Shown: positions 10,638 to 16,681 of the stretch, piece after piece
Layout of the letters: each line of letters opens with the position of its first letter
Numbering within the stretch: the stretch's first letter is position 1
DNA from: Geothrix edaphica
GTDB lineage: Bacteria > Acidobacteriota > Holophagae > Holophagales > Holophagaceae
DNA: 64,000 nt
Direction: 5' to 3'
Assembly: GCF_030268045.1 (NCBI RefSeq)
Contig: NZ_BSDC01000001.1
Span: 1,612,001-1,676,000 of the forward strand
Program-made: the position numbers and the translations under genes
Notes under the pieces: model-generated
What the model was told of the DNA's origin: nothing
The model's database searches: none
The model's input: the letters and a program-made list of their open reading frames with translations, nothing else

Positions 10638-12314
10638 CTACTTCAGTTCAGGGAACTGCTCCTCCCGGAATTCGGTGGACGAGTGGGTCTGCTCCGCGGC
10701 CCGCTTGCGGAGCTCCACCCGCCGGATCTTGCCGGAGATGGTCTTGGGCAGATCGCCGAACTCCAGGATCCGGATGCGCTTGTAGGGCGAGAGGCGCTCG
10801 CGGATGAACCGGAACAGTGCCAGGGCCGTGCCGCGGTCGGGCTCGAAGCCCGCGCGCAGGATGATGTAGGCCTTGGGCACCGCCAGCTTCAGCGGATCCG
10901 GGCTGGGCACCACGGCCGCCTCCGCCACGGACTCGTGCTCGATGAGAAAAGACTCCAGCTCGAAGGGGCTGATGCGGTAGTCGGAGCTCTTGAAGACGTC
11001 GTCGGCCCGGCCCACGAAGCAGAGGTAGCCGTCCGCGTCGCGCGTGGCCACATCCCCGGTGCGGTACCAGCCCTCGGCCAGGGCCTTCTCCATCTTCGAC
11101 GGATCGTCCTTGTAGCCGGCCATGAGGCTCGTCGGGCGGGGGCTCAGCTTGAGGGCGATCTCGCCCTCCTCCGCCTCCTTCCCATCCGCGTCCAGCAGCG
11201 CCACCGTGAAGCCCGGCAGAGGTCGGCCCATGGAGCCGGCTTTGACCTTCTGGCCCGGGGAGTTGCCCACGATGGCCGTCGTCTCGGTCTGCCCGTAGCC
11301 GTCGCGGATGGTGAGACCCCACGCCTTCTCCACCTGGGTGATGACCTCGGGGTTCAGGGGCTCGCCAGCACCCACCAGGGCCCGGAGCTTCACCTTGTAC
11401 GCCGCGAGGTCCTCCTGGATGAATAGGCGCCACACGGTGGGAGGCGCGCAGAGGGTGGTCACGCCCTTGTCGGCGATGACCTGGAGCGTGGCCGGCGCGC
11501 TGAAGCGGGCGGCCCGGTAGATGAAGATGCAGGCCCCGGCGTTCCAGGGCGCGAAGAAGCTGCTCCAGGCGTGCTTCGCCCAGCCAGGCGAGCTGATGTT
11601 GTAGTGGATGTCCCCTTCGCGCAGGCCCACCCAGTACATCGTGGACAGGTGGCCCACGGGATAGGACTGGTGAGTGTGGACCACCAGCTTGGGCTTGGCC
11701 GTGGTGCCTGACGTGAAGTACAGCAGCATGGGGTCCGTCGCACGGGTGGCCGCATCGGGCGCGAAGGAGGCCGATCCCGCCAGGAGCTCGGACACGTCAT
11801 GCCAGCCGGCCACCGCAGCGCCCACACTGATGCGGGTGAGGCTGGCATCCAGGCCGTCGAACTTGCCGGTCTGGGCGGAGTCCACCACCAGATGCCGGAT
11901 GCCGCCCCGCTCGATGCGGTCCTGGAGGTCCGCCTGGGAGAGCAGCAGCGTGGAGGGGACGAGCACCGCGCCGAGCTTGATGCAGGCCAGCATCACCTCC
12001 CAGAGGGGGAGGACATTGTCCAGCATGATCAGCACGCCATCGCCCCGCTTGACGCCCATGGCCCGCAGCGAGCTGGCCACCTGATTGCTGCGCCGGGACA
12101 GCTCCTGGAAGCTGACCTTCGTCTCCGAGCCACCCTCCTCGACGATCCACAGCGCGGGGCGGTCGTTGCCCACCGCGTAGGCATCGAAATAGTCCAGGGC
12201 CCAGTTGAAGGTATCCAGGACCGGCCAGCGGAAGTCGCGGCAGGCCGTGGCGTGGTCGTCCCGATGCGCGACGAGGAAATCCCGGGCACGGAGAAAGGCT
12301 TCGCGACCACTCAT
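10638..12314 (-). CDS. AMP-forming acyl-CoA synthetase
   Basis: 558 residues of the ANL superfamily. The adenylation motif YFTSGTTAKPKLVVHTH, the GYGQTET motif and the hinge/C-terminal catalytic lysine in PKTISGK (Lys about 529) are all present. It activates a carboxylate with ATP and CoA through an acyl-adenylate. Spacing and length resemble acetyl-CoA or medium-chain (MACS) synthetases. The PxxxxGK motif is the known target of reversible lysine acetylation in this family, and the divergent genes at 12479-16681 encode an acetyltransferase, a CBS-ACT protein and a deacetylase. AGGAGG precedes the ATG at 12314; the longer open frame to 12413 has no homology. Confidence 0.9.
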   Translation of the reverse strand: MSGREAFLRARDFLVAHRDDHATACRDFRWPVLDTFNWALDYFDAYAVGNDRPALWIVEEGGSETKVSFQELSRRSNQVASSLRAMGVKRGDGVLIMLDNVLPLWEVMLACIKLGAVLVPSTLLLSQADLQDRIERGGIRHLVVDSAQTGKFDGLDASLTRISVGAAVAGWHDVSELLAGSASFAPDAATRATDPMLLYFTSGTTAKPKLVVHTHQSYPVGHLSTMYWVGLREGDIHYNISSPGWAKHAWSSFFAPWNAGACIFIYRAARFSAPATLQVIADKGVTTLCAPPTVWRLFIQEDLAAYKVKLRALVGAGEPLNPEVITQVEKAWGLTIRDGYGQTETTAIVGNSPGQKVKAGSMGRPLPGFTVALLDADGKEAEEGEIALKLSPRPTSLMAGYKDDPSKMEKALAEGWYRTGDVATRDADGYLCFVGRADDVFKSSDYRISPFELESFLIEHESVAEAAVVPSPDPLKLAVPKAYIILRAGFEPDRGTALALFRFIRERLSPYKRIRILEFGDLPKTISGKIRRVELRKRAAEQTHSSTEFREEQFPELK

Positions 12315-12478
12315 CTGGTCCTCCTGGTTTGCTTGGGGTATAGAGCAATCTAGGACGGCCCCGACCCGCCGTCCAGGATGAAAAACGACGTGCAGGGGGA
12401 GAAAGAATCTCAAGTAGGACCGGGGGCTGAGCCTGCATGGTAGGGTGGTCGCGTTGCACCCCCTCCGCGAGGCTTCCT

Positions 12479-14933: not shown

Positions 14934-15560
14934 ATGCTGGTGAAGGAGATGATGCGCAGTCCGGTGACGGTGGTTGGCGTGGAGGCCACCATCGGGGAGG
15001 CCCATGAGCTGCTCCAGGCCCACGGCTTCCGCCACCTTCCCGTGGTGGACCGGGGGCGCCTGGTGGGAGTCCTCACGGACCGGGACCTCCGCTTCGCCAC
15101 CAGCAACCTCTGCCACACGGCGCGCACCGCGGAGGATCCCGTCTCCGGCGCCATGAGCAGCCCACCCCTGACGGCCGATCCCCTCGATCCGGTGGAAGAT
15201 GCGGCGCGGATCATGCGCGAGCACAAGATCGGCTGCCTGCCGGTGGTGGACGGCGGTGAGCTGGTGGGCATCCTCACCGGCATGGACCTGCTGGACGCCC
15301 TCATGATCCTCACGGGCGTGACCAAGCCCTCCTCCCGGCTCGAGGTGGCCCTCGCGGACCGGCCGGGCGAGCTGGCCCGGCTCACGGCCTTCCTCGCCGA
15401 TCGCCACGTCAACATCCACTCCATCCTCACCTACCCCTCGCCCGAGGCGGTCCGCACGGTGCTCAGGGTCGCCTCCAACCAGATCCGCCCCCTGGCGGAG
15501 GAACTGCGGACGGCCGAGTTCACGGTCCTGTGGCCGCCGCCCAAGCCATGGCAGCACTGA
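14934..15560 (+). CDS. acuB: AcuB-like protein with two CBS domains and an ACT domain
   Basis: 208 residues. CBS pair: first repeat about 1-58 (MRSPVTVVGVEATIGEAHELL, FRHLPVVDRGRLVGVLTDRDL), second about 75-130 (IGCLPVVDGGELVGILTGMDLL). A C-terminal ACT domain (~138-208, RLEVALADRPGELARLTAFLAD) follows. CBS pairs bind adenine nucleotides and ACT domains bind small metabolites, so this is probably the sensor of the module. In Bacillus subtilis AcuB sits between AcuA (acetyltransferase) and AcuC (deacetylase) in the same order; its molecular role there is not settled. AAGGAG precedes the ATG. The 3' end overlaps acuC by 13 nt, indicating coupled translation. Confidence 0.88.
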   Translation: MLVKEMMRSPVTVVGVEATIGEAHELLQAHGFRHLPVVDRGRLVGVLTDRDLRFATSNLCHTARTAEDPVSGAMSSPPLTADPLDPVEDAARIMREHKIGCLPVVDGGELVGILTGMDLLDALMILTGVTKPSSRLEVALADRPGELARLTAFLADRHVNIHSILTYPSPEAVRTVLRVASNQIRPLAEELRTAEFTVLWPPPKPWQH

Positions 15561-16681
15561 TCTACCGCCCGGAATACGCCGGGTACGACTTCGGGCCGGA
15601 GCATCCCTTCACGCCGGCGCGGCTGAGCATGCTCCTGGACCTGATCCACTCCCTGGGACACCCGACCTCGCCCATCGCGGCCCCGGCGGCGACCCGGGAG
15701 GAGATCCTGTCTGTCCACGACGAGGCCTTCGTCGCGATGGTGGAGGCCCTGGACCGTGGCGAGACCCGCCCGGAGGCCGAGCAGTTCGGCCTGGGCACTC
15801 CGGACAATCCCGTCTTTCCGGGCATGGACCTCGCGGCCCGCTGGCTGGTGGGCGGCACCCTCCACGGCGCACGCCTGCTGATGGCGGGAACCGAGACCCG
15901 CGTGCTCCAGCTGGGCGGCGGGCTGCACCATGCCCAGAAGGACCGCGCCGCCGGCTTCTGCATGTACAACGACCTGGCCGTGGCCATCCAGGCCTGCGTG
16001 GACCACGGCTGGCGCGTGGCCTACCTGGACATCGACCTCCATCACGGGGATGGCGTCCAGAGCCTGTTCTACGGCAATGACCGGGTGCTGACCATCAGCC
16101 TCCACGAGACCGGGCACTACCTCTACCCCGGCACCGGCCACATCCAGGAGCTGGGCACCGGCCCCGCGCGAGGCCTGAGCGTGAACGTCCCCCTGGAGCC
16201 CTTCACAGAGGCCGAGAGCTACCTGGAGGCCTTCGAGGCCGTGGTGCCCCGGGCCCTGGCCGAGTTCTCGCCCCACATCCTGGTGGTGCAGGCGGGCGCG
16301 GACGCACACTTCGCCGACCCCCTCGGCGACCTGGCCCTGACCACGCAGACCTTCCAGGCGCTTCACCGCCGGATCCTCGACCTGGCCGAAGCTCACACCC
16401 AGGGCCGGGTACTCGTCACGCTGGGCGGCGGCTATGAGGCCCAGGTGGTGGCCCGCGTCTGGACAATCCTCTACCTCACCCTGATGGATCTCCCCATCCC
16501 CGAAGCCCTCCCGCAGGACTGGCTGGATCGCTGGCAGCACCTCCTGGGCGCGGACGTCGGCCGGACCCTCCACGACCCGACCCCGGCCTATCCGGAACTG
16601 CCCGGCCGGGCGGAACGGAACCGCCGCAACCAGGACGTGGTCGGGCGGCTGCTGGATTCCCTCGTCCGCTACTGGCTCTAG
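15548..16681 (+). CDS. acuC: AcuC-type protein lysine deacetylase (HDAC family)
   Basis: 377 residues. The family start (ALIYRPEYAGYDFGPEHPF) is followed by the active-site histidine pair at 127-128 (GGGLHHA), zinc ligands Asp 163 and His 165 (DIDLHHGDG) and Asp 252 (GADAHFADPLG), and the catalytic tyrosine at ~296 (LGGGYEA). It should remove acetyl groups from lysines, reactivating an acetylated acyl-CoA synthetase. The ATG at 15548 lies inside the end of acuB; a GTG at 15530 would add six residues. There is no strong ribosome site, consistent with translational coupling. ruvA follows after 39 bp. Confidence 0.9.
   Translation: MAALIYRPEYAGYDFGPEHPFTPARLSMLLDLIHSLGHPTSPIAAPAATREEILSVHDEAFVAMVEALDRGETRPEAEQFGLGTPDNPVFPGMDLAARWLVGGTLHGARLLMAGTETRVLQLGGGLHHAQKDRAAGFCMYNDLAVAIQACVDHGWRVAYLDIDLHHGDGVQSLFYGNDRVLTISLHETGHYLYPGTGHIQELGTGPARGLSVNVPLEPFTEAESYLEAFEAVVPRALAEFSPHILVVQAGADAHFADPLGDLALTTQTFQALHRRILDLAEAHTQGRVLVTLGGGYEAQVVARVWTILYLTLMDLPIPEALPQDWLDRWQHLLGADVGRTLHDPTPAYPELPGRAERNRRNQDVVGRLLDSLVRYWL

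Follow-up and report, generated by a model that had tools for sequence, protein, structure and literature searches.

In the genome of Geothrix edaphica (G000; 3.16 Mb, 99% complete), the genes of a compact type II protein acetyltransferase (FUS), an AcuB-type protein and an AcuC-type zinc deacetylase stand back to back with the gene of an AMP-forming acyl-CoA synthetase (ACS). Judged from sequence, we favour, with confidence a little above even, the reading that the three proteins act as a module for reversible acetylation of lysine, with ACS as its main local target. The observations behind it concern gene content, gene order, co-occurrence and residue conservation. All four genes lie in a stretch of 64,000 nucleotides (contig NZ_BSDC01000001.1, positions 1,612,001 to 1,676,000), here called the window, in whose coordinates positions are given; G numbers denote genomes and L numbers fetched loci. 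ACS (10638..12314, minus strand, ATG at 12314) resembles MbcS and 4-hydroxybutyrate-CoA ligases, and the lysine of its catalytic motif PKTISGKIRR is K529 of 558 residues. Across a divergent intergenic region of 164 bp (12315..12478) follow, on the plus strand, FUS (12479..14917; 812 amino acids), with an N-terminal GNAT domain (E105) before CoA-binding and succinyl-CoA-ligase-like domains; the AcuB-type protein (14934..15560; 208 amino acids), of CBS-CBS-ACT architecture, with R33 and H34 kept and N182 at the place of Bacillus M188; and the AcuC-type deacetylase (15548..16681; 377 amino acids, ATG at 15548), which is class I histone deacetylase (HDAC)-like with GLHHA, DIDLHHG, AGAD and GGGY motifs. 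The start of AcuC overlaps the acuB stop, and ruvA is the next gene after it. An earlier note on this DNA had given the span 10638-16681, this gene content, the divergent gap and the numbering of Lys 529, all of which proved correct.

Co-occurrence was surveyed in 77 genomes of the family, 47 of them in the genus, with E values up to 1e-30 for FUS and up to 1e-100 for ACS. FUS was found in 43 genomes (39 of the 47 in the genus, one nearly full-length match in another genus, G239, and three partial matches) and ACS in 42, namely the same 39 genus genomes and three distant matches at 37-42%. Within the genus the two genes thus co-occur exactly, with 39 genomes having both and 8 neither. AcuB and AcuC were each present in 37 of the 47 genus genomes and in G239; in the two FUS-positive genomes without them (G226, G230), FUS is cut by a contig end. 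All eight genomes without the module keep one or two Acs-like genes (41-43% to acsX, an acs-like gene treated below), and none keeps ACS. On an SMC tree of 21 rows (all 8 absent and 13 of the 39 present genomes) the absences are scattered and need five changes, at least three of them on supported branches; hence the genes were gained or lost together on more than one occasion. Because physical linkage eases joint loss, this co-occurrence supports a unit and not, by itself, a function.

Gene order was examined as well. The gap between ACS and FUS measured 114-172 bp in all 33 genomes without acsX between them, while ruvA followed AcuC in 17 of these, did not in 10, and could not be judged in 6 where the contig ends (27 judgeable). 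The ACS-FUS pair thus stayed together while its far neighbour changed. A chance adjacency of ACS and the module is not favoured, given the gene order kept across the genus, the exact co-occurrence and the pattern on the SMC tree. The earlier note had named beforehand a lack of conservation of the neighbourhood in relatives as grounds for giving up the proposal; the order is kept across the genus, and on these grounds the proposal is not refuted.

The domain composition of FUS was clear from Pfam matches (Succ_CoA_lig 173, CoA_binding_2 86 and Acetyltransf_3 35 bits), which show an N-terminal GNAT fused to two parts of an NDP-forming acyl-CoA synthetase, the CoA-binding and the flavodoxin-like one. 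The solved chains nearest to this GNAT were those of the GNAT of Streptomyces lividans PatA (4nxy, 4u5y), the latter solved in complex with the C-terminal domain of Acs. In residue counts, which leave out L100-L104, L107, L111 and L118 as duplicates of genomes already counted, the position of Glu105 was E in 47 of 50 FUS sequences and D in 3; this Glu is the catalytic residue of PatA-type enzymes. Neither the window protein nor any of the six further module members tested gave a Pfam match to an ATP-grasp domain at E 0.001, whereas all three full-length acidobacterial homologues tested matched ATP-grasp_5 with E below 1e-75. In the alignment FUS has one gap of roughly 70 columns along with two smaller gaps, and the 50 distinct rows longer than 700 amino acids span 800-824. 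An AlphaFold2 model built with 24 sequences (mean predicted local distance difference test 85, predicted template modelling score 0.83) matched ADP-forming acyl-CoA synthetases and Escherichia coli PatZ.

A review (PMC8556138) gives this order of GNAT and synthetase half for type II protein acetyltransferases and states that their synthetase half is without a catalytic His. FUS of Geothrix departs from that description, since the ligase residue His450 is kept in 32 of 32 Geothrix sequences; it is present in 7 of 18 others, a patchiness expected if the ligase reaction were no longer needed. The claim that AcuA is replaced by a large PatA-type enzyme therefore holds for the type, which is PatA-like, and fails for the size, the enzyme being compact and without a recognisable ATP-grasp. 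A small stand-alone AcuA was also considered and set aside, as among eight proteins scanned a GNAT domain occurred in FUS only. The compact form is common to Acidobacteriota and to bins named Melioribacteraceae, Kryptoniota, Bacteroidetes and Calditrichota. ATP-grasp matches lacking the first half were also seen at two Actinomadura loci and, under the cut-off, at a Bacillota locus, so truncation of this domain is not unique to the compact clade. Separately, three acidobacterial GNAT-NDP-synthetase fusions (L064, L065, L066) keep ATP-grasp_5 intact and carry a His (SHTAA) in the catalytic position, contrary to what the review states (PMC8556138), and are possibly active in both halves.

ACS itself (Pfam AMP-binding, 209 bits) is not a typical acetyl-CoA synthetase. 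Its best NCBIfam match was MbcS (NF047394; 409.8 bits, under the equivalog cut-off of 850), it failed the acetyl-CoA synthetase test TIGR02188 (243.7 bits; cut-off 724.95), and its nearest solved relatives were a 4-hydroxybutyrate-CoA ligase (8biq) and an AMP-binding protein (3etc). Aligned to Acs, it has YG in place of WW, and YG or FG was found in all 39 Geothrix sequences; we take this place to be that of the acetate-limiting pocket Trp, W414 of Salmonella enterica. The motif PKTISGKIRR was intact in 38 of 39; in the last, L056, the fetched stretch stops too early to show it whole. ACS probably acts on an acid other than acetate. The likeness to MbcS and 4-hydroxybutyrate-CoA ligase does not fix which; what the sequence shows is that the pocket Trp is lacking. 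Downstream, at a spacing of 130 bp, lies a 611-residue acyl-CoA dehydrogenase with an Acyl-CoA_dh_C domain (ACAD; 8672..10507, minus strand), whose best solved relatives were 8png, 8r1e, 6ijc and 8pns, with FadE5 further down the list. ACAD adjoins ACS in 35 of the 37 Geothrix loci with room to see, which suggests that a larger acid is activated and then oxidised. The idea that control extends beyond acetate to fatty or aromatic acids thus agrees with ACS in its first half, and in its second goes further than the sequence can fix.

The two remaining proteins were assigned from Pfam matches (AcuB: CBS 115 and ACT 40 bits; AcuC: Hist_deacetyl 285 bits). The nearest solved relatives of the window AcuB were AcuB of Geobacillus stearothermophilus and the acetoin utilization AcuB chains 9s4v and 9qs7, the latter being the B. 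subtilis protein together with Ap4A. In Bacilli, AcuB is an adenine-nucleotide-binding inhibitor of AcuC; one source names AMP as its nucleotide (PMC13121692) and another Ap4A (PMC13039410), so that the two disagree over which nucleotide matters. The nucleotide residues named there are R33, H34, R51, G104, C105, K120 and D122, and the contacts that block AcuC are His86 and Met188, which plugs AcuC (PMC13039410 / PMC13121692). Among 50 distinct AcuB sequences R33, H34, R51, G104 and C105 were invariant, D122 was present in 49, and H86 was kept in 2. Each HDAC motif of AcuC was found in 46-48 of 49 sequences, as in class I HDAC-like zinc deacetylases. The genome also encodes a second HDAC-family protein and one sirtuin (C1:101986-102690 and C5:42469-42981; L044, L045), and AcuC need not, therefore, be the sole eraser.

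Of 563 loci the best 80 were kept, and rarer forms may be missed. Outside the genus, a synthetase adjoined the module in 14 of 21 loci, and in the other seven (G018, G032, G192, G144, L106, L108, L109) the contig ends beside or within the module. Most often Acs lay upstream on the same strand (G109, G136, G078, G115, L110, L112, L113, L116, L117); other orders were Acs-acuB-acuC-FUS (L105), acuB-acuC-FUS-acsX (G002) and FUS converging on acs-acuB-acuC (G239). Six synthetases were scanned, and the linked ones of G109, G078 and G115 passed both PRK00174 and TIGR02188, that of G136 being a fragment. The 13 distinct partners other than acsX had WWQTE in 10 cases and YWQTE in one, with the pattern not found in two (pocket Trp in 11 of 13). 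The partner outside the genus is thus, on this pattern, mostly a true Acs. A Bacillus-like divergent order as the ancestral state was considered and is not favoured, since the synthetase is mostly upstream on the same strand outside the genus and acsX stands between ACS and FUS in six Geothrix genomes. Among 61 further loci, Actinobacteria by record name (L119-L179), PatA-type genes came with an AcuC-type match in 35; in that group, PatA and AcuC may commonly work as a pair of writer and eraser.

Within Geothrix, acsX precedes FUS in six genomes and lies elsewhere, on another contig, in eight; at an identity of at least 80% it was not found in the other 25 of the 39, some of which are incomplete. 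Where an acsX-linked locus has both ACS and FUS on one contig (five loci), 4.4-6.9 kb separate the two. Like ACS, acsX has no pocket Trp (YGQTE in 7 of 7, the six Geothrix and G002), and the copies of G040 and G002 pass PRK00174 and fall short of TIGR02188 (698 and 721.9 vs 724.95). In the acsX-linked loci the space between ACS and acsX is taken up by genes for a porin-like protein, a metallo-beta-lactamase-fold protein and, in most cases, a DUF6125 protein (L183:5919-10226, L059:6220-12452), perhaps an acid-uptake island. The latter two also accompany FUS and acsX in G002, a metallo-beta-lactamase-fold gene stands with the FUS set in G032 (both of another family), and one adjoins acsX in 3 of the 8 genomes with acsX elsewhere. 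Because these companions are shared, an old acsX-FUS link is favoured, broken in most Geothrix and leaving FUS beside ACS. Alternatively, the acsX set may have entered one Geothrix clade. The FUS tree, made by a quick method from 53 rows (covering 36 of the 39 genomes, the other three being omitted for their short FUS pieces), fits that equally well: the six acsX-linked rows form one clade (98) beside the other 30 Geothrix rows. The entry reading is kept because the root falls between these two groups, with a different Acs in their sister lineage G109. In G212 (L189:10435-12318) a further Acs-like gene stands between acsX and FUS, giving two acs-like genes in a row before FUS.

In the mechanism that we propose, FUS would use acetyl-CoA to acetylate K529 in PKTISGK of ACS, blocking the adenylation step, and AcuC would take the acetyl group off again. 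The CoA-binding half of FUS probably senses acyl-CoA or CoA, as it can hardly make acyl-CoA with no ATP-grasp. The CBS pair of AcuB would bind adenine nucleotides and set the balance, acting on AcuC as in Bacilli by a changed contact. As known for Acs, the likely gain would be that ATP loss is stopped when CoA thioester is abundant. In most Geothrix the module would serve a synthetase that is paired with an acyl-CoA dehydrogenase and whose substrate is probably a larger acid. We infer the acetylation and its effect, the sensing roles, the substrate and the order of evolutionary changes from the comparisons above. A further step, on balance doubtful, is that the switch was re-aimed: it would have left Acs and been kept as the dedicated control of another acid's synthetase, with the pseudo-ligase half a CoA-thioester sensor and AcuB, lacking the plug, acting by a new contact, perhaps on FUS.

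Several observations weigh against an acetylation switch on ACS. Conservation of the motif lysine is not evidence of acetylation, because the Lys of PX4GK is required for catalysis in any case. ACS and the module are physically linked, and their joint loss may be a plain block deletion; moreover, of the eight genomes without them three (G206, G209, G214) are only 58-88% complete, the other five being 94-100%. ACAD is not beside ACS in G204 and G211, and in two loci from Kryptoniota and Bacteroidetes bins (L114, L115) a compact FUS is divergent from Acs with no acuB or acuC matches in the fetched 9-kb flanks. In AcuB the K120 position has no Lys in 50 of 50 sequences, and the M188 position is polar in all 33 Geothrix (N 20, S 11, T 1, Q 1); the known AcuB-AcuC mechanism may not carry over, and the contact may differ. 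Outside Geothrix this position is M in 6, I or L in 9 and N in 2 of 17 sequences (the latter G109 and G018). The idea that partner change and M188 loss were timed together was dropped, since N also occurs in G109, whose partner is a true Acs, and in G018. The genome further encodes two Acs away from the module, both with PKTRSGK, that are potential FUS substrates. Finally, S. lividans Acs was poorly acetylated by its own PatA (PMC4053389), and PX4GK alone does not make a substrate (PMC4053389, PMC11619455).

The main rival, which we regard as unlikely, gives ACS no special rank: FUS and AcuBC would be a broad regulator of several AMP-forming synthetases (Acs1, Acs2, ACS and a medium-chain ligase), like Pat of Rhodopseudomonas palustris. 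The three other synthetases examined in the genome suit it, namely Acs1 (L077) and Acs2 (L076), both with WWQTE and PKTRSGK, and a ligase with PKTSTGK (L078). It draws as well on Pat- and AcuA-type enzymes elsewhere, which act on several ligases (PMC11619455). The eight module-free genomes, however, keep Acs and never ACS, which ties the module to ACS, an argument that the linkage weakens. We give distinctly less credence to the view that the module continues to govern acetate activation by way of the unlinked Acs1 and came to lie beside ACS by an accident of rearrangement. Acs1 is present with WWQTE and PKTRSGK, and the linked partner outside the genus is mostly an Acs with the pocket Trp; yet ACS and FUS adjoin in 33 of 33 genomes without acsX between, even though ruvA is not downstream in 10 of the 27 judgeable, and the two are absent together while Acs persists. 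Least probable of all is that FUS is no synthetase acetyltransferase (degenerate, or with another protein or a small molecule as substrate) in a metabolic island for one acid, as the missing ATP-grasp, the many substrates of GNATs and the porin-like, metallo-beta-lactamase-fold and DUF6125 genes of the acsX-linked genomes might suggest, against which stand the usual company of an AcuC-type deacetylase and AcuB, the GNAT closest to Pat enzymes, the conserved Glu, and the pairing of FUS with three kinds of AMP-forming synthetase.

The start codons and the divergent region were also examined. The open reading frame of ACS runs mechanically to 12413, 33 residues beyond the chosen ATG. For FUS the best candidate start is GTG 12479, because protein conservation begins there and relatives have ATG, GTG or TTG at that place; the alternative of the reading-frame list is ATG 12437. 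A Shine-Dalgarno-like AGGAGG precedes ACS in the divergent region. Upstream of FUS, TGGTAGGGTGGTC at 12438-12450 is well conserved across 33 aligned Geothrix intergenic regions, judged from 11 rows of that alignment, and may be a promoter element, an extended -10 or a leader element. With a possible shared operator in mind, a sigma-70 consensus pair was looked for in the 164-bp gap and none was found; in the window the 13-mer had one exact match, and at two mismatches the number of matches was not above chance.

Should the preferred reading of a switch on ACS be true, an acetylation switch may have been re-aimed in Geothrix from an acetate enzyme to one for a different food acid. The acu system, described for Firmicutes in the papers cited here, would reach into Acidobacteriota and further phyla, with an acetyltransferase of another kind. 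The natural series of loci (module beside a true Acs, beside acsX, with acsX elsewhere, or with acsX not found) offers a way to follow a substrate change of a lysine-acetylation circuit. The module would also be a test case for the role of a PatA-type synthetase half without ATP-grasp, and for AcuB function without the methionine that blocks AcuC. The other synthetases that relatives carry at the module, and the ATP-grasp part missing from the fusion, go beyond the earlier note. We found no literature on this module in Acidobacteriota or on acetylation in Geothrix in titles and abstract openings, a search covering few subscription journals.

The closest known system is the acsA|acuABC locus of B. 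subtilis and G. stearothermophilus. Shared with it are a divergent AMP-forming synthetase with the catalytic-Lys motif, a GNAT, a CBS-CBS-ACT AcuB and a class I HDAC-like AcuC in one operon, and most AcuB nucleotide-binding residues. In contrast, AcuA of Bacilli is a small stand-alone GNAT and FUS an 812-residue compact type II PatA-like enzyme; the Bacilli neighbour is an acetyl-CoA synthetase and the Geothrix one MbcS-like without the pocket Trp; and Geothrix AcuB lacks M188 and K120. Hence, of the proposal that the Bacillus circuit exists here, the conserved acu-like set is borne out, while the divergent placing need not descend from a Bacillus-like order and, with the plug methionine now polar, the AcuB-AcuC contact may be another one. 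Compared with the type II enzyme PatA of S. lividans, FUS is shorter (812 vs about 900 residues or more), has no detectable ATP-grasp, keeps the alpha-subunit His in Geothrix and is linked to acuB and acuC. The actinobacterial acuC-patA neighbours (L119-L179) likewise place a PatA-type enzyme near an AcuC-type deacetylase, but PatA is mostly longer there and AcuB matches occur in only 2 of 61 loci, both weak. In R. palustris and Salmonella, Pat and CobB control many acyl-CoA synthetases; the acetyltransferase there is of type I, whereas the Geothrix module is linked to one synthetase. The parts themselves, and the control of non-acetate acyl-CoA synthetases by Pat, are thus established. What is new here is their combination, which differs from acuABC in the acetyltransferase, the likely target and the AcuB contact.

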